A stretch of DNA of 64,000 nt, taken from NCBI GenBank assembly GCA_016213405.1, contig JACRAM010000125.1, positions 124,001 to 188,000 on the forward strand. Reading direction: 5' to 3'. Of the stretch, positions 46,138 through 61,414 are shown piece by piece. Position 1 is the stretch's first letter. Every line of letters begins with the position of its first letter. This stretch comes from Bacteroidota bacterium. GTDB taxonomy: Bacteria; Bacteroidota; Bacteroidia; Palsa-948. The position numbers were made by a program, and so were the translations under genes. Under the pieces are notes generated by a model. It ran no database searches. It was given only the letters and a program-made list of their open reading frames with translations, and was not told the origin of the DNA.

Positions 46138-49100
46138 TTATTTCATCTTGGTCACAGTCCCTATGTAGCGATGTTCTTTATTGAAAATATCGAGAACACG
46201 GATCTTCCAGACATATACATCTTCCTGCACCACTGCACTTCCGCCCTTAATGGTGCCGTCCCATCTTTCATTATAATCGTGCGTAATAAAAATCAGGTTG
46301 CCCCACCTGTCAAAAATGAGCAGTTCGTATTCTCTTATTCCGATTCCCACTCCGCTGAACAAATCATTATGATTATCTCCGTTTGGTGTAAATGCATTGG
46401 GAACATAAAACGCAAAATCGCGGACTTCAACAAAATGCATCACGGTATCAATACATCCGAATTGTGAAATCACAATCAGCGTTACATTATACATTCCTGT
46501 ATCTGCATAACTATGCCCCGGGTTTTGCACAGATGAACTGTCTCCGTCTCCAAAAGTCCAAGCCCATTGAACAATACCTGTATAGGATAAATCAGAGAAC
46601 GCAAATAGTTCGCCCAGTTCGGTAATTGAATTGGGAGAAACAGAAAAATCGGCAGTTGGCTGGGCATACACAAACACGCTGTGTGAAATGGCAGTTGTGC
46701 ATCCATTGTTTGATGTAAGTGAAAGTGTTGCTGTGTAAGTTCCTGAAGAAGAATAAATATGGGTAGGATTCTGAACCGTATCGGTATTGCCATCGCCAAA
46801 AGCCCAGTTCCAGTTAGTAATACTTCCCTGCGGAATCATAGATAAATCACTAAATGAATTTGTGAAACCTATGCACACGCTGTCTGCAATAAAATCAGGA
46901 ACCGGGTTAGGATAAATTACAATAGTGTCGCTGACGGTATCGGCACATCCGCCTGAAGTGGTTGCAATAAGGGTTACTGTGTATGTTCCAAAGCCAACAT
47001 AGGTATGCGAAGGACTCTGTTGAGTGGAAGAGTTTCCATCTCCAAAAGTCCATGTCCATGTTAAGGGCGGAGCGGTTGAATTGTTATTAAACTGCGCAGG
47101 ATAATTTTCACAAATATTCTGAAACGAAAATGCTGCGATCGGCAATGCAAGAACATTTACAGGAATTTGAATTGTACTCTGGCAACCGCTGTCTGAAGTT
47201 ACCGTAAGCACCACGTTAAATGTTCCGGCAGCAGTATAGGTGTGCGATGGATTCTGCAAAGTGGAAATATTAGAAGCACCGGAATTAGGGTCGGCAAAAT
47301 TCCAATTCCAGTTTATTAAACTGCCTGGTGAAACAGATGACTGGTCGGCAAACAAGGTGGTATTGCCAATACAAACGGTGGATGCCGTGAAACTTGCCTG
47401 CGGAAGAGGATTTACAATTACCACCTTCTTCAAACTGTCCACGCATCCGAATTGATTTGTTGCAACCAGCGTGACAGTAAAAGTTCCTGCATTGGAATAG
47501 GTATGATTGGGATTTTGAATAGAAGAAGTATCGTTCGGCCCAGATGACGGTTCTCCGAAATTCCAAAGCCATGATGTGCTTCCGGTGGATTGATCGGTGA
47601 AAGAAGTTTGTGTATTAAAGCATTCGTTAGGAGCAACAAATGCAACTACCGGCAGTGCATTTATTGTAACCATCACAGCGTCTGAATTGCTGCAGCCATT
47701 TGCATCGGTCACGGTTAGCGAATAAGTTGTAGTTGATGCGGGAGACGCAACAGGATTAGAAATATTGGTGCTGCTTAATCCATTCGCTGGCGACCATAAA
47801 TAAGTTCCGCCTCCGCTGGCATTTAATTGAGCAGAAGTTCCGGAACAAATACTCACATCCGCTCCCGCATTGGGAACAGGAAGTGCGTTTACGGTTACTG
47901 TTACATTAGCTGAGGCAAAACATCCGTTGACATCTGTAACAACTACAGTATAGGTTGTACTTGCATTTGGTGTGGCAACAGGATTGGAACAAGTTGTACA
48001 ATTCAATCCGGCTGCAGGAACCCATGCATAGGTTCCTCCTCCAGTCACGCTGAGCGTAGTCGAAGCGCCAAAGCATACGCTTGCATTCGGACCTGCATTG
48101 GCTATAGGACCGCCTGTAGAATTGACTGTTACGGTTGTTGAATATGTGCATCCGTTTGCATCGGTAACAGTAACGGAATAAGTTGCTGCCGCCAATCCGG
48201 TAGCAGTAGAAGTAGCTTGTCCGTTGCTCCATAAATAAGTAAATGCTCCGGTTCCTCCCGAAGGAGAAACTGTGGCGGAACCGTTCAGTTGGTTGCAAAT
48301 TTCATTTACTGAACTTGTGGTTGCTGTAATCGCAGTTGGCTGAGAGATTACAACTGCGGCTGAAGAAGTGCATCCGCTGGCATCGGTAACTGTGACCGAA
48401 TAATTACCGGCTATTAATCCTGTTGCAGAAGAAGTTGTCTGTGAGTTACTCCATAAATAAGAATACCCTCCTGCTCCGCCACCTGCAGTTACAGAAGCAG
48501 AACCATTGCTTCCACCATTGCAGGAAACATTTGTTGAAGATGGAACGGCTGTTACCGCTGTCGGCTGAGTGATTGTAAATGCGGAAACTGAAGTACATCC
48601 GTTGGCATCGGTAACAGTAACCGAATAATTTCCGGCTGATAATCCGGTGGCTGAAGAAGAATTTCCTCCGCTTGGATTCCATGCATAAGTATAAGCAGGA
48701 GTTCCTCCGCTCATGTTTACTGAAGCGCTTCCGGTATTTCCTCCATTACATGTTACATTTGTTTGTGATGGAACAGCCGAAAGCGCAGTGGGTTGTGAAA
48801 TGGAAACTGTGGTTACAGATGAACAGCCATTGGCATCGGTTACAGTAACCGTATAATTACCGAAGGAAAGTCCGGTAGCAACGGAAGTAGTTTGCCCGTT
48901 GCTCCAAACAAAAGTATAATTGGGAGTTCCTCCGGTCATTGTTGCAGTTGCATTGCCAGTGTTTCCACCATTGCACAAAACATTATTACTTGATAGAATG
49001 GAAGCCGTTCCTCCACCAGTACTGTTCACAGTTGCCGATAAAACAAAAGTGCATCCGTTTGCATCGGTAACAGTAACTGAATAAGTGCCTGAAGAAAGTC

Positions 49101-50970
49101 CGGTGGCAGTGGGAGAAGTTTGTCCGCTTGGATTCCATAAATAAGTATACGCTCCTGTTCCTCCGGAAGCAGAAACTGATGCTGTTCCGTTTGATGCAGT
49201 GCAAATAGAATTAGTGGTGGTCACACTTGCCGAAAGCGCAGCGGGTTGAGTGATGGAAACCGTGGTGGTGGCAGTGCAGCCATTTGCATCGGTAATGGTG
49301 CAGGTATAATTTCCCGGAGGAAGTGACGTAGCCGTTGAGGTAGTTTGCCCGTTGTTCCAAGCATAAGTATAATTCGGTGTTCCGCCTGTCATTGTTGCTG
49401 TTGCATTGCCATTGTTTGCTCCGTTGCAAGTTACGTTTGCGCTCGAAGAAATATTCGCAGTGCCGGAAGCGGTGGATGCAACGGTGACAGTTCCTGTTGC
49501 AGTACATCCGTTTCCATCGGTGATTGTCACTGTATAATTTCCTGCGGATAATCCTGTAGCTGAAGAAGAATTTCCTCCACTTGGACTCCATGCATACGTA
49601 TAAGCAGGAGTTCCTCCGCCTGCTGTAACTGATGCAGAACCGGTTGATGAACCGCAAGAGGCAGGTGTTGAACTCATGGCTGCAGTCAGGACAGCGGGCT
49701 GAGTAATGGTGACTGTAGCAAATGATACACAGTTATTATTATCTGTTACAGTCACCGTATAAGTTCCGGCACACAAACCTGTGGCAGTGCTGGGAGTGCT
49801 AATATTATTTTGGGTGAGAACGGGACCAAAAGGACCGGTCCAAACATAATCCCATGGAGAATCAGTGCCCTGAGCAGTAGCTGTTGCAGTACCGGTACAT
49901 TGACCATTACATAAAACATTGGTTTGTGTCATTACCGGTGGCAGACAACACGTCAATACAGCGCTGAATTGATAATCCGGATCAAGTTGACAGGCAATAC
50001 TTGACCATGATCCCGATTCGCCATCCCCCAAAGCATTAATAGTCATATTTAAATTTGGGCAAGCACAAGTGGCAGCTGTTTGAATGCTCCAGCAAAATGT
50101 CCAGGTACAAGTACCTGATGAATTATAATCTCCATAATTATTTCCCGGATTAGCATCCGCGGGCACAGCGTAATTATAATACCATCCGGCACCAGTTACA
50201 GCTCCAGTAGCAGAACTTGTGTTGCTGGGATACCATCCCCATGTTCCGCTAGCAGAACATTCTGTTGGATTTCCAACAGGAGCTAACGTAGCAGTATTCC
50301 AACCACAGCCAAATGTAGGTGTGATGCCATGAAGCCAATTAGAACTTATTTGTGTAAATGAACTCACCGTAAAGCAGAATGTTACAGTAGTGCCGGGCAG
50401 ATAGGTACCATTTGTCGGGAGTGGTGAAGCTGTTAAACTGGAAGCTTGCATACAGTTGTTGCAATCGTTATCATTATCCAGTGTCAACGTAAAATTTCCA
50501 GAGCCGGTTGGTGTATTGCCGCTTATCTGGAGATAATAAGTTTGACCGGGTGTTGTTGGCTGAAATGTTGCAGTAAGATTTCCGGCAGCATTTCCAATTG
50601 CGCAGTCAAAACCCACAAGGCTTCCACAAGTTCCTGACCACATGGCAACATTTGGAGTGGCTAAAGTGCCACTGATATTAATGTTAACCAGATTGCCGGT
50701 AGCTGTAAAACTATACCATACATCAAGGGCAGGAGCCGCCTGATTGCCTGCCGGCTGACATCCTAAAAGATAAGTATAGGGGTTAGGAGAAGTAGCTCCA
50801 ATATTGGTACCGGCAACAGATACTGTTGTTCCATTACCTGAAGGGCAAGCAGCCGGGGTGGGCAAAGTTCCAATATATTGAGCTGTGCTGCAATCATCAC
50901 CTTGAGCGAACACACTATTCAACCCGTAAATACAAAATAAAAAATGCGCGAGTAATAACTTTTTTGTCAT
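46138..50970 (-). CDS. Giant SprB-repeat/PKD protein with T9SS type B C-terminus
   Basis: A 1610-residue exported protein. After the signal peptide (LLLAHFLFCIYGLNSVFAQ) an N-terminal region (~22-170, DDCSTAQYIGTLPTPAACPSG; YYLQISGNTPTGSGNFTLTLD) resembles pre-peptidase or CUB-like sandwiches. It is followed by a Cys-rich module with GWYPSNTSSATG and GYYYNYAVP-like text. About nine SprB repeats occupy ~345-950. Two Ig-like modules come next (GPNASVCFGASTTL; GADVSICSGTSAQL). Five PKD domains follow (~1125-1500, each with WNFGEP/WTFGDGNSS). The C-terminal sorting domain is FAFYVPNAFTPNGDNHNDLF ... LLIFDRWGNLIF ... DVYVWKIRVLD. It is upstream of the other giant gene and belongs to the same surface cluster. 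Confidence 0.92.
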   Translation of the reverse strand: MTKKLLLAHFLFCIYGLNSVFAQGDDCSTAQYIGTLPTPAACPSGNGTTVSVAGTNIGATSPNPYTYLLGCQPAGNQAAPALDVWYSFTATGNLVNINISGTLATPNVAMWSGTCGSLVGFDCAIGNAAGNLTATFQPTTPGQTYYLQISGNTPTGSGNFTLTLDNDNDCNNCMQASSLTASPLPTNGTYLPGTTVTFCFTVSSFTQISSNWLHGITPTFGCGWNTATLAPVGNPTECSASGTWGWYPSNTSSATGAVTGAGWYYNYAVPADANPGNNYGDYNSSGTCTWTFCWSIQTAATCACPNLNMTINALGDGESGSWSSIACQLDPDYQFSAVLTCCLPPVMTQTNVLCNGQCTGTATATAQGTDSPWDYVWTGPFGPVLTQNNISTPSTATGLCAGTYTVTVTDNNNCVSFATVTITQPAVLTAAMSSTPASCGSSTGSASVTAGGGTPAYTYAWSPSGGNSSSATGLSAGNYTVTITDGNGCTATGTVTVASTASGTANISSSANVTCNGANNGNATATMTGGTPNYTYAWNNGQTTSTATSLPPGNYTCTITDANGCTATTTVSITQPAALSASVTTTNSICTASNGTASVSASGGTGAYTYLWNPSGQTSPTATGLSSGTYSVTVTDANGCTFVLSATVNSTGGGTASILSSNNVLCNGGNTGNATATMTGGTPNYTFVWSNGQTTSVATGLSFGNYTVTVTDANGCSSVTTVSISQPTALSAVPSQTNVTCNGGNTGSASVNMSGGTPAYTYAWNPSGGNSSSATGLSAGNYSVTVTDANGCTSVSAFTITQPTAVTAVPSSTNVSCNGGSNGSASVTAGGGAGGYSYLWSNSQTTSSATGLIAGNYSVTVTDASGCTSSAAVVISQPTAITATTSSVNEICNQLNGSATVSPSGGTGAFTYLWSNGQATSTATGLAAATYSVTVTDANGCTYSTTVTVNSTGGPIANAGPNASVCFGASTTLSVTGGGTYAWVPAAGLNCTTCSNPVATPNASTTYTVVVTDVNGCFASANVTVTVNALPVPNAGADVSICSGTSAQLNASGGGTYLWSPANGLSSTNISNPVASPASTTTYSLTVTDANGCSNSDAVMVTINALPVVAFVAPNECFNTQTSFTDQSTGSTSWLWNFGEPSSGPNDTSSIQNPNHTYSNAGTFTVTLVATNQFGCVDSLKKVVIVNPLPQASFTASTVCIGNTTLFADQSSVSPGSLINWNWNFADPNSGASNISTLQNPSHTYTAAGTFNVVLTVTSDSGCQSTIQIPVNVLALPIAAFSFQNICENYPAQFNNNSTAPPLTWTWTFGDGNSSTQQSPSHTYVGFGTYTVTLIATTSGGCADTVSDTIVIYPNPVPDFIADSVCIGFTNSFSDLSMIPQGSITNWNWAFGDGNTDTVQNPTHIYSSSGTYTATLSLTSNNGCTTAISHSVFVYAQPTADFSVSPNSITELGELFAFSDLSYTGIVQWAWTFGDGDSSSVQNPGHSYADTGMYNVTLIVISQFGCIDTVMHFVEVRDFAFYVPNAFTPNGDNHNDLFSGVGIGIREYELLIFDRWGNLIFITHDYNERWDGTIKGGSAVVQEDVYVWKIRVLDIFNKEHRYIGTVTKMK

Positions 50971-52222: not shown

Positions 52223-52245
52223 GGCAACTATATACGAGTTAGACC
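52223..52245. repeat. Left terminal inverted repeat, element I
   Basis: 23 bp, outer end GGCAACTATATACGAG, perfect inverse of 56426-56448. Confidence 0.92.
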
Positions 52246-52288
52246 TTCCATAGCAGAGATTGACCGATAAGGTTTGGGAAGGTTTTTG

Positions 52289-52411
52289 TTACTTCTTCTT
52301 TCCTTTTCTACGCTTCTTCTTCGGCTTTGGATTGCCTGAAACGGATGCGCTCAGTAGGTCGTGAAGCGAGACGTTTACTTTCAAAGTAATATCTTTTTTA
52401 TTTTTCCTCAT
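52289..52411 (-). CDS. 40-residue basic protein in element I
   Basis: A short ORF starting MRKNKKDITLKVNVSLHDLL and ending in a tail of Lys/Arg (NPKPKKKRRKGKKK). It has a regular beta-then-helix-like N-terminus and a nucleic-acid-binding-type tail. It lies between the left TIR and the P63C gene on the same strand. A TAATTTTG box (52416-52423, minus) lies directly upstream of the ATG, supporting its own transcription. Comparable small basic proteins occur beside mobile genes in Bacteroidota, but no function is known to me. Confidence 0.6.
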   Translation of the reverse strand: MRKNKKDITLKVNVSLHDLLSASVSGNPKPKKKRRKGKKK

Positions 52412-52415
52412 TCTG

Positions 52416-52423
52416 CAAAATTA
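52416..52423 (-). promoter_or_regulatory. Candidate -7 box for the 40-residue protein
   Basis: TAATTTTG on the minus strand, an exact TAnnTTTG match, with TTGC about 15 bp further upstream (52439-52442). The box ends 4 bp before the ATG, so the message might be leaderless. Confidence 0.45.
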
Positions 52424-52481
52424 GTAATTCGTACATTTGCAATAAGTCGGACAAGTTAAAGTTTCTCACACTTCATCTAAG

Positions 52482-52507
52482 ACACAGAATTGCACTCTGT
52501 GTTTTTT
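52482..52507. terminator. Hairpin between the P63C gene and the small basic gene
   Basis: ACACAGA (52482-52488) / TCTGTGT (52496-52502) with a 7-base loop, followed by TTTTT on the plus strand and by a similar AT tract in the other direction. It lies downstream of the P63C stop and could end that transcript before the small gene's own promoter. Confidence 0.5.
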
Positions 52508-52545
52508 CGGCTAATGAGACCGTCTTCGACCTCGTCCATAATATT

Positions 52546-53451
52546 TTATCCTAAATCTTCGAACATATCACCCTGATATTCTCTTCCTGTTGCTCTTGCT
52601 AATGCTCTTTTAAATTTTGACCAGTTGGCGCAGGATTCCATTAAGAATATTGCATTTGAAATATATTCTTTCAATTCATCATTCCCTATGTCTGTTAGTA
52701 GTTGATGGTGTTTATATTTTCTATAACCATTTTCAGTCATAGGATTTTTGTCTTGTAGTTTTCCTAAAATTCCCTTTGGAAAACGAGAATAAACTATTTC
52801 GTTAGTCCATCTGCCTATAACACTTGGTTTTCTTTTCATGCTATCTTCTTCCCATGCCCATCCGTTCAGTTTAAAAATTAATTGATAAAACTTATCAGGA
52901 AATTTTTTATACCATTGCTTTATCTCATCATCAATATATTTTTCTAATAGCCGATTAAAAGTAAATCTATCCTTGAATAATTCAAATCCTGTTGCTTCAT
53001 AAATAACAGCATCCACTCCAGTTTTAGCAAAAGCAAAAACTATTATTTGTGATTCTTCCGCAAGTTTATATTGATTCTCTAAAAGATTTCCATCCATCTT
53101 TGCTTGCATATACATCTTACAGATGTCTATCAAATCGCTTCCCTTAAATCCTTGTGCAGTCCTTCCATTAAAGTTGAAGGTGATTACGCTTTCTGATAAG
53201 GGTTTCCCCTTAAATTGTTCGGGTAAATAACCCTGTAAGTTTTGTGGTTTTAAATATCTTTCAAAACCACCTTTTTTATTTCCTGTAAGTAATCCGACAA
53301 TTTCCCTTTGAACTATTACAGAAGTCGGATTAGTATCAGGATATAAAACAGCGCAAGGAATATCCAACCCTTTTATTTTTATTTTCCCTACAAAATCCGT
53401 TGAGGGAATTTCATTTTCTTTTTTTGAATCTTGGGACTGATGCTTACTCAT
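52546..53451 (-). CDS. P63C-domain protein (transposon passenger)
   Basis: A 301-residue protein whose central and C-terminal part resembles the P63C domain found in phage and mobile-element proteins. Visible features are a short charged N-terminus, LDIPCAVLYPDTNPTSVIVQR (quoted in part: IPCAVLYPDTNPTSV), LTGNKKGGFERYL, a QIIVFAFAKTGVDAVIYEAT segment, LLEKYIDDEIKQWYKKFPDKFY and the terminal RATGREYQGDMFEDLG. The function of P63C is unknown. It lies in element I between the small basic gene and the zinc-ribbon gene, in the same direction, and has no similarity to a transposase. Confidence 0.78.
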   Translation of the reverse strand: MSKHQSQDSKKENEIPSTDFVGKIKIKGLDIPCAVLYPDTNPTSVIVQREIVGLLTGNKKGGFERYLKPQNLQGYLPEQFKGKPLSESVITFNFNGRTAQGFKGSDLIDICKMYMQAKMDGNLLENQYKLAEESQIIVFAFAKTGVDAVIYEATGFELFKDRFTFNRLLEKYIDDEIKQWYKKFPDKFYQLIFKLNGWAWEEDSMKRKPSVIGRWTNEIVYSRFPKGILGKLQDKNPMTENGYRKYKHHQLLTDIGNDELKEYISNAIFLMESCANWSKFKRALARATGREYQGDMFEDLG

Positions 53452-53523
53452 TGATAATTAGTTATTTGCTTTGATATTTTTACTAAAAGTGCCTACTTTG
53501 GGACTGGTCTAATTTTATTGTTT

Positions 53524-53913
53524 TTAAAGATTGTCTATGATTCGTTGTAGCAAATCTTTTGATTCTAAATGCCCTCTTGTTATCTTTTTTGTCATTAGCC
53601 ATGCAGAATCTTTTGTTACTCCGATTTTTTTTGCGAGTTCCCTTGCGCTTGTATCTGGATTAGCATTTAACTCATAAATCGCAAACAGCCATTTGCGTAA
53701 ATCAATTTTGGTTTTTTTAAATATTGTTCCTACTGTTACGCTATAAGAAGTATCGCAATTATTACAATGGTATCTATCTTCTTTTTTCATTGCCGAATAA
53801 GAGTGATGCTTACAATAAGGACATACTGGTTTGTCGTTCCAGATAATATGCTCAAAAAAGGAAATACAATCTCTCTCTCTTGGGAATCGTTTATATATGT
53901 CTTTTAGTGTCAT
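53524..53913 (-). CDS. Zinc-ribbon/HTH protein resembling an IS1595 transposase N-terminus without the catalytic domain
   Basis: A 129-residue protein. It carries a zinc ribbon with CPYCKHH and CNNC (four cysteines), the YSVTVGTIFKKTKIDLRKW block and a helix-turn-helix (SARELAKKIGVTKDSAWLMTK). Together these correspond to the first 120 residues of the IS1595 transposase encoded divergently at 54045. The DDE catalytic domain is absent and the ORF ends normally at a stop codon after LLQRIIDNL. The ATG at 53913 (MTLKDIYKRFP) matches the family start better than one 42 bp upstream. It may be a DNA-binding regulator that competes with the transposase, or a decayed second transposase. Confidence 0.78.
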   Translation of the reverse strand: MTLKDIYKRFPRERDCISFFEHIIWNDKPVCPYCKHHSYSAMKKEDRYHCNNCDTSYSVTVGTIFKKTKIDLRKWLFAIYELNANPDTSARELAKKIGVTKDSAWLMTKKITRGHLESKDLLQRIIDNL

Positions 53914-54000
53914 CTTACCTTTATCAATGACAAATGTAATGTAAAAATACATCATTTTACCATTGTTAATAACTTTATCTTACCACTATCTATGACATAT
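53914..54000. promoter_or_regulatory. Divergent control region with three related direct repeats
   Basis: Three degenerate copies occur between the zinc-ribbon gene and the transposase gene: TCTTACCTTTATCAATGAC (from 53913), TTTTACCATTGTTAATAA (from 53955) and TCTTACCACTATCTATGAC (from 53978). The shared TTACC...AT(C/T)..TGAC pattern and its position suggest operator sites. A -7-like TATCTTTAC (54013-54021) points toward the transposase. Confidence 0.45.
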
Positions 54001-54044
54001 TGATATTTATATTATCTTTACTATATCAAACAAAAAGATACACT

Positions 54045-54983
54045 ATGAAAAACTTTAAAAACATTTCCGACCTTCTGACAACTTTTTCAAGCGAAGAAGT
54101 ATGTAGGAAACACTTAGAAGAATTAAGATGGAACGGTGTTCCAGTTTGTCCGTTCTGCAAAAGCAAGAAACATTATAAATTCAAAGACGGAAAAACTTAC
54201 AAGTGCGCAAATAAAACTTGCAGAAAAAAATATAACGCAACTGTGGGAACTATCTATGAGAATACAAAAATCCCTCTTCAAAAATGGTTTATCGCTATGT
54301 ATTTACTTTCCTCTCACAAGAAAGGAATTTCTTCTTTACAACTTAGCAGGGACTTAGGCATCACTCAAAAGAGCGCGTGGTTTGTATTGCATCGCATCCG
54401 TACTATGCTCAAAGAAAAAAATCCACAAGCGTTTCAGGGAACAGTTGAAGCAGATGAAACTTTTGTTGGTGGAAAGATTCATAACAAACACGCTTGGCAA
54501 AGACATGAATACAGATTAAAAGAAGCGGCAGGAGAACCCGACAATAAAACTATGGTCTTTGGCATTGTAGAGCGTAACAGGGGACTTGTATATCTAAAAA
54601 CAGTTAATAGCAGAGGACATGAAGATTTAATACCGATTATCAGACGCAGAGTTGAGGGCAATTCTGTTATGGTAACTGATTCTCTTTACGCATATAAAAT
54701 ATTACAAGAACATTATAAGCATTTTGTTGTCAATCATGCGCAGGGAGAATATGTAAGAGGAGATGCTTACACTAATACTATTGAGGGATTTTTCTCAATC
54801 CTGAAAAGAGGAATTATAGGTATTTATCACTATGCAAGTAAAAAGCACCTGCAAAAATATTGTGATGAATTTTCTTTCCGTTACAATACAAGAAGCTTAA
54901 CGGAGGAGGACAGATTTAATTTTGCAATGTCAAAAAGCAATGGCAGAAGATTGAAGTATGCGGAATTGATTGCGAAAAAGTAA
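54045..54983 (+). CDS. IS1595-family transposase
   Basis: A 312-residue complete transposase. It has an N-terminal zinc ribbon (CPFCKSKK ... CANKTCRKKY, ~33-60), an HTH (SSLQLSRDLGITQKSAWFVLHRI, quoted in part SLQLSRDLGITQKSAW; ~88-110) and a DDE-type catalytic core: first Asp in VEADETFVGGK (~132), second Asp in MVTDSLYAY (~210), and the N-x-E-G-F-F-S-x-L-K-R block VRGDAYTNTIEGFFSILKR (~241-259), as in the IS1595 group. The ATG at 54045 (MKNFKNISDLLTTF) is preferred to an in-frame codon at 54000. All motifs are intact, so the element should be active. Confidence 0.92.
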   Translation: MKNFKNISDLLTTFSSEEVCRKHLEELRWNGVPVCPFCKSKKHYKFKDGKTYKCANKTCRKKYNATVGTIYENTKIPLQKWFIAMYLLSSHKKGISSLQLSRDLGITQKSAWFVLHRIRTMLKEKNPQAFQGTVEADETFVGGKIHNKHAWQRHEYRLKEAAGEPDNKTMVFGIVERNRGLVYLKTVNSRGHEDLIPIIRRRVEGNSVMVTDSLYAYKILQEHYKHFVVNHAQGEYVRGDAYTNTIEGFFSILKRGIIGIYHYASKKHLQKYCDEFSFRYNTRSLTEEDRFNFAMSKSNGRRLKYAELIAKK

Positions 54984-55316
54984 TTAATCTTTCTTTTCAA
55001 AATCAATACCTATCCGTGTATAAGTTTATTTGTCGTAACATTTTTTCGAATAAGTAATAAGATATTTTAGTGTCTGAATTGATAACAATTCTATATCATA
55101 TCGAGAAATATCATGTTTTGAAGGTATATTAGGCATTATTATTGTGTTAAAATTGTTACATAAAATATTTAACAAATAATTACGTTTAGGATAACATGAT
55201 TTATATACATTTGAATTGTTGAAAAAATCCTATATAAAAAATATTTCATATAGTAATATTGTTACATTTGCAAACTTTTCTATCTTTACAATAATAGCTT
55301 CTGCAACAACTAATAC
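54984..55316. other. Intergenic region within element I
   Basis: 333 bp of very AT-rich DNA between the transposase and the downstream gene pair. No ORF is supported. Near its end ATTG (55258-55261) and TATCTTTAC (55281-55289) are separated by 19 bp, a plausible Bacteroidota-type -33/-7 promoter for the gene at 55317. Confidence 0.5.
55258..55289 (+). promoter_or_regulatory. Candidate promoter for the passenger gene pair
   Basis: ATTG (55258-55261) and TATCTTTAC (55281-55289) with 19 bp between them, close to the Bacteroidota TTTG-N19-TAnnTTTG layout, 27 bp upstream of the ATG at 55317. Confidence 0.45.
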
Positions 55317-55553
55317 ATGAACACCACGCCTAAATTATTATTTACAGAAAAATCCCTTCCATTAATATTGGAGGCATTTGGGAAATCTATTAATGAAGAT
55401 GGAATAATTATTGAATCTAATGGAGACCCCGTTCTCACACCCGAAGGAGAAGAAATAGATTCAAGAGAATTTGGCGGATTTAAAAAAGGGTCGGAAATTT
55501 TTATTAAAGATGATTTATATTCCATCATAAAGTTAGCAGAGGGTAAATATTAA
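55317..55553 (+). CDS. 78-residue passenger protein, first gene of a pair
   Basis: A small acidic protein (KLLFTEKSLPLILEAFGKS; NGDPVLTPEGEEIDSREFGG; FIKDDLYSIIKLAEGKY). It has no signal peptide or transmembrane segment. It begins 27 bp after a candidate promoter and ends 11 bp before the next gene, so the two form a small operon at the right end of element I. Small gene followed by a larger gene is a layout shared with toxin-antitoxin and some defence pairs, but nothing in the sequence identifies it as such. Confidence 0.65.
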   Translation: MNTTPKLLFTEKSLPLILEAFGKSINEDGIIIESNGDPVLTPEGEEIDSREFGGFKKGSEIFIKDDLYSIIKLAEGKY

Positions 55554-55564
55554 TTCCCCTTCCA

Positions 55565-56380
55565 ATGTCCTCTGCAAAGTTTACTCTTGAAAGAATAAAA
55601 GAACTTGCCTATAAAAAGGGGGTTGTTATTTTTTTGGACGTAGATGGAACTTCTCAAGAAGCTCAACAAGATAGCACTTATTCCTATGATGAAAAGAGAG
55701 GAATATTAAAAATTGTCGTTCCCGATTTAGAGATAAGAGATAAATCTCTTTTACTTGAAATAATCAGAAAAGTCAAAGAAGATGGAGGACTTGGATTCAA
55801 GGATTCAAAAAAAGAAATTTTAAATTCTTATATTGAATATGTATCAAATAATTCCGATAAAAATATTCTTCAATTTTATTCTGATATTTTAACTAAAGAT
55901 GATTATGGCGCACTCAAAATGTCCTTGTATTTGCGCTATGAAGCTAAAAAAGGCAACAATATTTTTATCTATAAAAAAGATATTAGAAATAAATTCGGTA
56001 CAAGAGGAGTTAATATCTCTAATTTGTGTTCTGCTGGATATTTTGAAACTGAGTTTAGAGAACTATATAATACAGAAGAAGAAAAAGAATTTAGAAGATA
56101 TTATGAAATAGCAGTTGGAATGGGAGCAAGGGCATTATTTGTTAATTCACACATGAATGTACCCGCAATAGAACAATCATTTGAGGTTATGCTTGATAAA
56201 GCATTAAGGTATCACATGAAAGAATTTAGAATACATGGGAAAGGAAAAATAAATGTAATAAATATCAAAAAATTTGTTTCTGAAAGAAAAATTACAGCAG
56301 AAGATGTATATACTATTAAAAAAGTATATGATGATTTAGATTTATTTGCAATAGAATATATTGTTGAAATCAGTGAGTAA
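55565..56380 (+). CDS. 271-residue passenger protein, second gene of the pair
   Basis: A soluble mixed alpha/beta protein, rich in Lys and Glu, starting MSSAKFTLERIKELAYKKG. Recognisable text includes GVVIFLDVDGTSQEAQQDS (~19-37), which superficially resembles a DVDGT phosphatase motif but without the rest of that family, and helix-rich stretches near 75-110 and 165-260 (NVPAIEQSFEVMLDKALRYH). It ends 45 bp before the right TIR. I do not recognise the family. Linked to the 78-residue gene by an 11-bp gap. Confidence 0.7.
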   Translation: MSSAKFTLERIKELAYKKGVVIFLDVDGTSQEAQQDSTYSYDEKRGILKIVVPDLEIRDKSLLLEIIRKVKEDGGLGFKDSKKEILNSYIEYVSNNSDKNILQFYSDILTKDDYGALKMSLYLRYEAKKGNNIFIYKKDIRNKFGTRGVNISNLCSAGYFETEFRELYNTEEEKEFRRYYEIAVGMGARALFVNSHMNVPAIEQSFEVMLDKALRYHMKEFRIHGKGKINVINIKKFVSERKITAEDVYTIKKVYDDLDLFAIEYIVEISE

Positions 56381-56425
56381 TTTTATTTCTGTTCTATTCG
56401 ATTTATTTCAATTCATTTTCCCTTT

Positions 56426-56448
56426 GGTCTAACTCGTATATAGTTGCC
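56426..56448. repeat. Right terminal inverted repeat, element I
   Basis: 23 bp ending CGTATATAGTTGCC, perfect inverse of 52223-52245. Confidence 0.92.
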
Positions 56449-57676: not shown

Positions 57677-60600
57677 TTATCGCACCTTACTGACATGCCC
57701 GATGTATTGGTGAGGTTGATTATGCACATCAACCAGATTCACTTTCCAGACATATACATCTTCCTGAACAAGCTGATGACTGTTTCCACCCTGAACTTTT
57801 CCATCCCATCCTTTGTTGATGTCATGCGATTCAAAAATCAAATTACCCCAGCGGTCAAAAATCATAATGTGAAATTCCTTAATGTATGTTCCGTATCCAA
57901 AAAACATTTCGTTAATGCCGTCATTATTCGGGGTGAAGCAATTTGGAATATAAAAAGTAAAGTCGGCTTCCACTTTCAGGCATTTAACAATGGTGTCTCT
58001 GCACACGTGGGTTGAATCGTGAATAATAAGTGTGATGCAGTAGGTTCCGGTATCTGAAAATATATGCATTGGATTCTCAAGAGTAGAAGAATTATTTGCA
58101 CCGGAAATTACATCTCCAAAATTCCAGAACCACACAAATGGATTTCCAACAGAAGCATCGGTAAACGCAACCAGCGGATTCAGGTACGAAACAATGTCGG
58201 GATTAAAATAAAAATCTGCTGCAGGAGCTAAAACTCCTCCGACAGAAACAGATAGTGGTTGATTGCAACCTTTACCATCTGTAACAATCACCGTATAAGT
58301 TCCAACCGATAGACCTGTTGCAGTAGTGGTTGTTTGAACGGGCGATGTTAGCCAGAGATAGGTGTAAGGCAATGTGCCTCCCGATGAACTGATAGTTGCA
58401 GTTCCATTACTTACCCCACAGCCGGCATCCGTTGAAATACTTGTGAGATTCATTCCGGGAGGTTGGGTGATTATTATATTATCAGTTATTGCACACCCAT
58501 TCGCATCGGTCATTGTTACAGAATAATTTCCTGCTATCAGATTACTTGCAACAAGGCTTGTTTGCGTAGGAATTGTAGTCCATGAATACGTAATTGCGCC
58601 TGTGCCTCCGCTTCCGCTTGCGGTTGCAGAACCGTCATTCCCTCCGAAACAGCTTACATTTATAGAATTGATAATACTTCCTGTGACTGGAGGAGGTTCA
58701 TTAACTGTAATCGTATTTGTGGCGCTGCAGCCAAGATTATCGGTTACTGTTACTGAGTAAGTTGCTCCTGAAAGTCCCGTAGCGGCTGAAGTTGTTTGAC
58801 CGCCAGGCGACCAGAGATAGGTTAGCGGATTCAATCCTCCTGTTGTAGTGACTGTTGCAGTTCCATTACTTGTTCCAAAACATAAAAGACTTGTTTGAGA
58901 CATTTGAAGTGCAGGCGGCTGACCAACTGAAATTACCAGCTTGGCAGAATCAATATACGCGCAAACTCCGAGCGAATCTATTGCATACAATGTAACCGTA
59001 AATGTTCCTACCGCTGTGTACGTATGCGAAGGAGAAGTAATCGTATCTATCGGACTTCCATCACCAAAATTCCAGATGAAGCTGGAAGCAGCGCTGCCGG
59101 TATTTGTGAATGATGCTGTAAAAGGCGCGCAACCGGCATTGGGACCATTCAGAATAGCAACAGCAATAGGATGAATGCTCACATCCATTTTCACTACAGC
59201 ATTGTTGCAGTTGCTGCTGTTATTTGTGCTTGACCATGCGCCTGGAGTAGTAGGAAAACCGCTCGTGCCTCCGCAACTTCCGCAAACGGATTGATAGATG
59301 AAAGCTCTTCTGTCGAAACGGCTTGTTCCTCCATCCACATGGTCGGGTTCAAAGCCACCGTTCTCGCCATAAAAAGTTGCATACCAGAGCGACTTTGCGT
59401 CAGGAGTAAGAACCATGAAATAAAAATCGCAGCCATCTGTAGTTGGTTGCTGCGCGTTGGCGGTAATGGGCATTCCGGTTACAGTATTAGGATTTGGGTT
59501 TTGAAACTGTGAACATCTTCCCCATCCTGCAATGTAAATGCTTTCACAGCTGTCAACCAAAAATGCTGTGGGAGAAATATTCGGATTCAGAGAACCTGTT
59601 CCGACAACAGTAGAAAAAACAGTTGTTGTCAATGAGCTATTGAGTTTATGAATGAATTGCGCGCTATTTGCATTTTTATAAACTCCCGCTGTTGTCTGGT
59701 ATGCACCGCGTGTTAATCCAAATACATACACATTATTACTTGCGTCTTTTTCCAAAAAGTAAGATTGATCATCAGAAGCTGTCCCTAAAAATGTGGAAGC
59801 GAGCAGAGAAGTTCCTGTGCTGTTCAGTTCCGAGATAAAACCATCTGTAGTACCTCCCTGAAAAGTTGTATGAATTACACCGGCCGTAGTGGGAAAATTA
59901 TTGCTGGTGGTTCCTCCTGTTACATATACATTGCCCGCAGCATCGAGTTTCAATCCGTATGCTCCGTCATAATTGCTTCCGCCCAAATAAGTGCTGAAAG
60001 AAAGAGCAGAAAGATTACTGTTCATTTTGAAAACGCATCCATCCTGAGGTCCACCCAACGTTGCATCGTATGCGCCTGCAGTTGTAGGAAAGTTTGAAGA
60101 TTGTGTGGATGCGGCTATGTATACATTGCTTGCGTTATCTAAAATAATTTCACTTCTGCCATCATCCGCATAACTGAATTTTGTCATCCCGAATGTATAA
60201 AACCCAGCATTATAATTTACTCCATCATCACCTGAACCACCAATAAACGTGGATGCAAGCAATCCACCAAGTGTATTAAACTTGCCAACGATTATATCCC
60301 CTCCTCCGTTCAGTGACTGATCATAAGCGCCTGCGGTAGTCGGGAAATTTGCCGACCATGTTCTGCCTACAACATACAATTCATTGTTGGCATTGACAAA
60401 CATGCTGTGCGGCTGTTCGTTATCAGCACCTCCGTAATAAGTTGCAAAAAGGCGGGTAGTTCCGGTTGGATTATATTTTATGATTGCAATGTCAAATGGA
60501 TAACCTGAACCTCCAGCTCCTCCTCCACCAAATGTTGCTTGCGATGCTCCCACTGTTGTCGGATAACCGGCAGAACAAGCTACTCCTGCCGAATAAATAT

Positions 60601-61414
60601 TTCCGGCTGCATCGTAAGTTGCGGTGAAACCCCAGTGATCAGCTGGTGAACCTGAATAAGTAGCGGCAATAAGTGTGGGGTCAATTATCAATGGAAGTGA
60701 TTTGTCATAATTGCCAACAGAAAAGCCAAGCTGGTTGTCATTCAGGTTCAGAACATAGTTGCAGGGGATTTCTTTTTTCTCTCCATTTATTTTCTGATAC
60801 GCATAGGGCTTTTGCTCGATCACCATTCCTAAACTTGTTTTGATGTAGAAATGCCCGTATGAAAGATACAATGAGTCAGCTCCGTCATAAGACATTTGGA
60901 TATTATTATAATCCCCGCCTGGATTAACAATGAAATCATATTTCAGATGCATATCGGATGCATAAAAGTTTACATCAATGTTATCATAAATGTTTTCATA
61001 TTTCACTTTCTCAAACATTTTTACATTCTCAGCCCATCGTGAAGAGTCATTGCCATGATAATAATTATTTACAAAAGAATATTGATTGTCTCCTTTTATC
61101 TGCACAGCGGGATTACTATTCTCAAATTTTACTTTCCAGGCATGATAGTGAACGGTAATGGGCTCCATCTTTGTTTTCCCGAATCCGTGGAAGTCAACAT
61201 TTTCGGAAAGAAGATACGTAAGCGTATTGTTTTCAAGAAATAAATTTCCTCCGGGAATCTCTGCGTGAAACTTTACCTGCGCAGGCCACTGGTTTTTATT
61301 TTCGTCAAAGAAAAGTTTTGAAACTGATGACGGAATTTCTTTGTTCGCCTGGGCAAAAATAAATTCAGTATCCGTCAGGAGAAGGAGAGAGAATAATTGA
61401 ACAAGGATTCTCAT
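57677..61414 (-). CDS. DUF7948/SBBP/PKD/SprB-repeat protein with T9SS type B C-terminus
   Basis: A 1245-residue exported protein. After the signal peptide comes a DUF7948-like N-terminal domain (~35-250; FFDENKNQWPAQVKFHAEIP, IYDNIDVNFYASDMHLKYDF, SLPLIIDPTLIAATYSGSP). A set of SBBP beta-propeller-type repeats follows (~255-720; each with AGNIYSAG / NELYVVGRT / SNVYIAAST and FPTTAGAYD). Then a PKD domain (FIWNFGDGSP, ~790), three SprB repeats (SLLCFGTSNGTATV, NVSCFGGNDGSA; ~850-1040), another PKD (WFWNFGDV) and the sorting domain FTFYIPNCFTPNNDGINEMF ... MIFDRWGNLIFESHD ... DVYVWKVNLVD. It should be exported by T9SS and displayed or released at the surface. Confidence 0.92.
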   Translation of the reverse strand: MRILVQLFSLLLLTDTEFIFAQANKEIPSSVSKLFFDENKNQWPAQVKFHAEIPGGNLFLENNTLTYLLSENVDFHGFGKTKMEPITVHYHAWKVKFENSNPAVQIKGDNQYSFVNNYYHGNDSSRWAENVKMFEKVKYENIYDNIDVNFYASDMHLKYDFIVNPGGDYNNIQMSYDGADSLYLSYGHFYIKTSLGMVIEQKPYAYQKINGEKKEIPCNYVLNLNDNQLGFSVGNYDKSLPLIIDPTLIAATYSGSPADHWGFTATYDAAGNIYSAGVACSAGYPTTVGASQATFGGGGAGGSGYPFDIAIIKYNPTGTTRLFATYYGGADNEQPHSMFVNANNELYVVGRTWSANFPTTAGAYDQSLNGGGDIIVGKFNTLGGLLASTFIGGSGDDGVNYNAGFYTFGMTKFSYADDGRSEIILDNASNVYIAASTQSSNFPTTAGAYDATLGGPQDGCVFKMNSNLSALSFSTYLGGSNYDGAYGLKLDAAGNVYVTGGTTSNNFPTTAGVIHTTFQGGTTDGFISELNSTGTSLLASTFLGTASDDQSYFLEKDASNNVYVFGLTRGAYQTTAGVYKNANSAQFIHKLNSSLTTTVFSTVVGTGSLNPNISPTAFLVDSCESIYIAGWGRCSQFQNPNPNTVTGMPITANAQQPTTDGCDFYFMVLTPDAKSLWYATFYGENGGFEPDHVDGGTSRFDRRAFIYQSVCGSCGGTSGFPTTPGAWSSTNNSSNCNNAVVKMDVSIHPIAVAILNGPNAGCAPFTASFTNTGSAASSFIWNFGDGSPIDTITSPSHTYTAVGTFTVTLYAIDSLGVCAYIDSAKLVISVGQPPALQMSQTSLLCFGTSNGTATVTTTGGLNPLTYLWSPGGQTTSAATGLSGATYSVTVTDNLGCSATNTITVNEPPPVTGSIINSINVSCFGGNDGSATASGSGGTGAITYSWTTIPTQTSLVASNLIAGNYSVTMTDANGCAITDNIIITQPPGMNLTSISTDAGCGVSNGTATISSSGGTLPYTYLWLTSPVQTTTTATGLSVGTYTVIVTDGKGCNQPLSVSVGGVLAPAADFYFNPDIVSYLNPLVAFTDASVGNPFVWFWNFGDVISGANNSSTLENPMHIFSDTGTYCITLIIHDSTHVCRDTIVKCLKVEADFTFYIPNCFTPNNDGINEMFFGYGTYIKEFHIMIFDRWGNLIFESHDINKGWDGKVQGGNSHQLVQEDVYVWKVNLVDVHNQPHQYIGHVSKVR

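Follow-up and report, generated by a model that had tools for sequence, protein, structure and literature searches.

The stretch between positions 52223 and 56448 of the analysed DNA (the window, 64 kb of a Bacteroidota genome) was found to contain an intact IS1595-family element of 4,226 bp, in which a small gene near one end recurs in related elements at a similar place while the larger cargo is replaced from one relative to another. The element is best read as a 'transporter IS' of a Bacteroidota clade that would have as its core the transposase together with a short module acting as its partner, in this case a standalone protein of 40 amino acids; a probability of about 60% is given to this reading. 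The recurrent small protein, the tail found in sister elements and the partner function that both may have are the new points of the analysis.

Anatomy and family of the element

The terminal inverted repeats (TIRs) at the two ends were found to be identical over all 23 bp and to be flanked by a perfect 8-bp duplication (Table 1), as the initial annotation had reported and as direct reading and an end scan confirmed. In the exhaustive end-pair scan around the transposase gene (tnp), this TIR and duplication pair scored 30 of 30 (22 TIR and 8 duplication positions), followed by a runner-up with 22. The search for the TIR with up to three mismatches gave just two matches within the window, with none expected from shuffled sequences. 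The element was present as one copy in its own genome and contained 31.6% G+C versus 41.7% in the 5-kb flanks. No syntenic empty site was found in the genus, where the lack of conservation of the 141-aa gene beside the element leaves no usable synteny.

The intact transposase and the five other ORFs in two divergent groups were as the initial annotation had described. The leftward genes, for a zinc-ribbon protein (ZnR, 143 aa), a P63C protein (301 aa) and the basic protein (40 aa), form one apparent operon, and the rightward genes are tnp followed by the p78-p271 pair. The element was flanked by two very long repeat-rich surface proteins of 1,610 aa (46138-50970, minus strand) and 1,245 aa (57677-61414, minus strand), both of which presumably end like a gliding-motility/type IX secretion C-terminal domain (FTPNGDNHNDLF...IFDRWGNLIF).

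Table 1. Features of the element and of its target site, with positions in the window
Feature	Coordinates	Strand	Basis or remark
Left target-site duplication, CAACCAAA	52215-52222		Read directly
Left TIR, GGCAACTATATACGAGTTAGACC	52223-52245	+	Direct reading, end-pair scan, mismatch search
40-aa lysine-rich protein (...LKVNVSLHDLLSASVSGNPKPKKKRRKG...)	52289-52411	-	ORF call, HMM, leave-one-out; stop codon, where the leftward operon ends, 66 bp from the left end of the element
301-aa P63C-domain protein (phage-type regulator family, PF10546)	52546-53451	-	Pfam, phage matches, tail comparison
143-aa ZnR, zinc ribbon and HTH	53524-53955	-	Pfam, NCBIfam, transposase comparison
Three 24-bp direct repeats (53912-53935, 53977-54000, 54014-54037)	53912-54037		Divergent promoter region
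312-aa IS1595-family DDE transposase	54045-54983	+	ORF call, Pfam, NCBIfam, transposase tree
78-aa protein p78, cargo	55317-55553	+	Directly upstream of the 271-aa gene in 4/4 loci
271-aa protein p271, cargo	55565-56380	+	Homologue loci; model with C-terminal part (about 190-270) Alba/SpoVS-like
Right TIR	56426-56448	-	Same 23 bp as the left TIR
Right target-site duplication, CAACCAAA	56449-56456		Read directly

The transposase starts with the ATG at 54045, in a reading frame that was found to be open from a TTG at 54000. It contained the Pfam domains DDE_Tnp_IS1595 (1.3e-38) and Zn_ribbon_IS1595 (2.6e-12), both above the curated cut-offs, and matched NCBIfam transpos_IS1595 with 200 bits (cut-off 75). 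The TIRs and the 8-bp duplication expected of the family were found here and also in about 40 relatives. The transposase would bind the 23-bp TIRs, move the 4.2-kb unit and leave the 8-bp duplications. Genes other than those of transposition were found inside the TIRs in the form of the 78/271 pair, which is regarded as unrelated to transposition because it sits outside any TIR in three genomes; the initial annotation was right in calling this a cargo transposon and no plain insertion sequence. IS1595 elements with passenger genes are known as transporter IS, or tIS (Siguier, Gagnevin and Chandler 2009, as cited in PMC3129680 and PMC7986276), so the carriage of cargo as such is not new. The present element shares with tIS the transposase with zinc-ribbon and DDE_Tnp_IS1595 domains, the TIR of about 23 bp, the 8-bp duplication and the passengers within the TIRs, whereas it differs from the described tIS in the recurrence of a small basic protein or fused tail as a second component. 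No account of such a second component of IS1595 was found in the literature searched, which comprised works other than Siguier 2009 itself.

Related elements, the small basic protein and the C-terminal tails

Relatives were sought in the genus, in 395 genomes of the class, in 381 genomes of the phylum and in genome contigs, and about 40 related transposases were recovered in Bacteroidota. Most of them were found in the end scan to have TIRs of the type GGYAACTATATAC... and an exact 8-bp duplication. The sizes of these elements were mostly 1.7-5.8 kb, and nearly all relatives therefore hold more than the 0.94-kb tnp. Clustering of the cargo showed almost nothing in common between elements. The nearest relative (L055/L010, 58% transposase identity) had none of the larger cargo in common with the present element, and a GHKL/TmtA-like protein was found in L055. 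A PvuRts1I-like modification-dependent nuclease was found in L011, a methylase with a nuclease-like N-terminus together with a specificity subunit, directly overlapping tnp, in L019 and L062, and KilA-N or P63C proteins in other elements.

In the sister elements L019 (5405-7063) and L062 (5460-7310), the methylase and specificity genes overlap the tnp stop codon, and this restriction-type cargo is compact and without a separate R gene. An XRE-type regulator of 69-73 aa was found directly behind tnp in L020, L023, L057, L060 and L070, followed by the gene of the small basic protein in three of these five. The methyltransferase that overlaps tnp in L116 (8163-9302) opens with SFDDVLKKVVGTVTQTP, which is similar to the partner motif but N-terminal. 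An IS1595 transposase that is a close relative (41%) was found on a Patescibacteria MAG contig, Candidatus Saccharibacteria RIFCSPHIGHO2_12_FULL_44_22 (L016), from which TIRs were not recovered.

The small protein was found by iterated HMM search in 18 of the initial 29 elements and, judged from the sequences, is a conserved component of this element type, recurring where the other cargo turns over. Its homologues are lysine-rich, of 34-53 aa, and tend to escape ordinary ORF calling. The stop codon was found 55-72 bp from the outer end of the TIR in 12 of 19 elements, with the gene reading outwards. The whole-genome HMM search (198 genomes) gave 17 matches at E<=0.01, and 15 were in or beside IS1595 elements (12 members used to build the model and three new ones, G117, G193 and G120); the other two (G088:C66 and G050:C60) were not placed at a transposase. 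The derivative in G120, of 1,506 bp, contained a transposase remnant of 213 aa and the small gene and nothing else. In the leave-one-out test, the top score within 26 of 28 elements, in some cases a low one, went to the ORF that was expected (small protein or tail); L067 and L077 failed, and L073 was outscored by its own flank. No recognisable partner module was found in L011, L014 and L114. In the transposase tree, the elements with the small protein were within a clade of 22 (98/99). The protein, for which Pfam and NCBIfam gave no identity, is by its sequence probably a short amphipathic helix with a Pro/Lys tail behind it, and it may assist transposition by binding the transposase or the DNA near the TIR.

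The sister transposase clade was found to be without the standalone small protein, and the gene coupled to tnp in it (P63C, KilA-N or a small regulator) mostly bears a C-terminal FDKxLK...PPPxK tail. Seven elements have, behind tnp, a gene that overlaps the tnp stop codon by a few bases; it encodes P63C in L024, L073, L074, L075 and L091 and KilA-N in L068 and L076. These P63C and KilA-N proteins have in common a somewhat variable C-terminal F-D/N-K-x-L-K...P-P-P-x-K tail, and a standalone small protein was not found in any of the seven elements. The HMM built from the P63C tails alone recovered the KilA-N tails (5e-8 and 0.011). With the tail-only HMM, the coupled 81-aa protein of a distant element ranked first among 2,017 ORFs, and the top six also contained coupled proteins of 71 and 91 aa from two elements, one of 60 aa from a fourth and one flank ORF. 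The four C-termini of phage or non-IS1595 P63C proteins that were scored with the tail HMM were all negative, and none of the phage homologues examined had the tail of the sister-element P63C and KilA-N proteins. In the transposase tree, the tail-type elements were grouped in a clade of 11 (100/96), with L014 outside it. L076 (KilA-N) and L091 (P63C) were found to be sisters (100/93), so the body of the protein was exchanged and the tail retained. In these elements the job of the small protein may fall to the tail, fused to P63C, KilA-N or another regulator that is co-translated with the transposase.

A relationship between the fused tail and the standalone protein is weakly suggested. The comparison by hhalign gave an E of 0.0038 and a probability of 9%. 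With the tail HMM, the 20 standalone proteins outscored Lys/Arg-rich ORFs (p=4e-5), but the margin over their own shuffles was small (p=0.027), and part of the signal is therefore composition. On visual comparison, the end of the HsdS-like protein of L062 looks similar to the 40-aa standalone protein of L078, a sister of L062.

Regulators and captured cargo

ZnR was found to resemble the zinc-ribbon/HTH half of IS1595 transposases and to stop before the DDE catalytic domain; it thus has the DNA-binding N-terminus of a transposase without the catalytic domain, as InsA-type proteins do. Its identity with the transposase of the same element was 37% over 112 aa, and its start is probably the internal ATG at 53913 (MTLKDIYK). 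The gene is divergent from tnp, and the three 24-bp repeats in the shared upstream region, close to both start codons, are putative and probable operators. Among the relatives no other truncated transposase of this type was found. The IS1595 family is reportedly regarded, in the title of the 2009 Siguier paper, as related to IS1. An InsA-like role of ZnR appears most likely because of the match with the transposase N-terminus, the divergent repeats, the precedent of InsA and the relatedness of IS1 and IS1595. InsA, which has the same DNA-binding domain as the IS1 transposase, acts on IS1 by repressing the promoter and competing for the ends (PMC12428005). ZnR is probably a similar repressor, in which the DNA-binding N-terminal part of a transposase is made alone; it would compete for the sites of the transposase and repress the divergent promoter through the three repeats. 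Unlike InsA, its gene is separate, diverged and divergently transcribed, and has no common reading frame with the transposase.

The P63C protein matched PF10546 (4e-27) with 95.1 bits against a gathering cut-off of 26.1. P63C is a phage family, which was matched by 46 phage records, and six of the nine P63C loci in the 395 class genomes were inside IS1595 elements; P63C is thus a recurrent partner of these elements. The protein of the present element is without the FDK tail, unlike its homologues in sister elements. Its predicted model (pLDDT 76) gave no match in the PDB, no meaningful relatives of solved structure were found by sequence, and the literature search on P63C, or on KilA-N with IS1595, gave nothing relevant. 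P63C here and KilA-N in sister elements (3e-23) are like phage regulators, whereas they differ from the phage proteins in being inside transposons and, in the sisters, in overlapping the tnp stop codon. P63C may be a phage-type regulator that was recruited for the control of the element. Outside IS1595 elements, short P63C proteins were found to be paired with a small basic GGLKGGKARAxxL...KRW protein (L092, L093).

In three other genomes the genes of p78 and p271 were likewise found side by side, separated by 4-17 bp, as two-gene islets of low GC that have no TIRs and lie amid unrelated genes of the chromosome; one islet is flanked by valS-like and exopolyphosphatase-like genes and another is near a gyrA-like gene. 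No TIRs or long direct repeats were found around these islets, and the pair was not found in phages, plasmids or viral contigs. By sequence, p271 gave no meaningful relatives of solved structure. Its AlphaFold model (pLDDT 78) contained beta-alpha-beta-alpha-beta-beta in the last 80 residues, and Foldseek gave many Alba, SpoVS and Pop7 structures with sub-significant E values (0.03-0.7) and a probability of up to 0.98. The C-terminus is, on the model, a probable Alba/SpoVS-like nucleic-acid-binding domain, similar in the order of strands and helices and in several matches; unlike Alba and SpoVS, it is fused to an N-terminal region without assignment and paired with the 78-aa protein. Of the five passengers, only this pair behaves as exchangeable cargo, and with its Alba-like protein it could plausibly be a small host-benefit or addiction cassette.

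Alternative readings and meaning for the family

The element could be an ordinary transporter IS with unrelated passengers, the small basic protein being a short passenger that occurs often and plays no part in transposition, and this is considered somewhat unlikely. Passenger-bearing IS are a recognised type that has been reported for IS1595 (PMC3129680, citing Siguier 2009), and the cargo differs in almost every element; however, the small gene recurs across the transposase clade of 22 while the other cargo turns over, lies at a near-fixed distance from the TIR and is retained in the 1.5-kb derivative. Capture of ZnR and P63C from a phage or host, as transcription factors in the service of the cargo and not of the element, is quite improbable. 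The phage records of P63C and the limited identity of ZnR with its own transposase would agree with capture, but P63C was found in six IS1595 elements of the class, in most cases with an overlap between its gene and the tnp stop codon, and ZnR is divergent from tnp across the repeats.

The initial annotation had regarded the five genes as passengers that travel together as one system, and had suggested that the cargo could serve control or defence. Among the about 40 Bacteroidota relatives no element with the same set was found, and the cargo of the nearest relative was quite different. One joint anti-phage defence or toxin-antitoxin system is very improbable: restriction-type genes were found in sister elements (PvuRts1I-like, methylase with specificity subunit, GHKL) and the 78/271 pair is a two-gene islet that is compact, low in GC and sporadic, but PADLOC was blank for every protein of the window, the five genes were never found together elsewhere, and for three of the five a role as element component or regulator is the better explanation. 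A defence system of all five genes was rejected on these grounds, and the suggestion of control or defence is kept for parts of the cargo. The zinc-ribbon protein, taken for a travelling passenger, proved to be a transposase-derived DNA-binding domain, and the small basic protein a conserved component of the element family. Passengers as ordinary chromosomal genes outside TIRs, named beforehand as evidence against the cargo transposon, were found for the 78/271 pair. The supposed five-gene system would rather break down into a partner protein that is small and conserved, an InsA-like derivative, a phage-type regulator found repeatedly in such elements, and a captured gene pair.

The preferred reading, of a transposase with a short partner module, can be tentatively extended. 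Bacteroidota IS1595 elements might use a portable short peptide as partner of the transposase, either as a standalone basic protein of 35-55 aa or as a tail on interchangeable DNA-binding proteins (P63C, KilA-N, small regulators and possibly methylase or specificity subunits). Through these proteins the transposase would be tethered to certain DNA, or its activity linked to signals of phage or restriction type; this extension is judged unlikely. The element group seems to collect small cassettes of restriction-type and unknown genes in Bacteroidota. Should the small protein or tail indeed serve as a partner in transposition, a widespread family of IS that are commonly taken to consist of one gene would have a second component missed by annotation. 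The fusion of this component to various DNA-binding proteins would then exemplify, in nature, modular targeting or control of a transposase.
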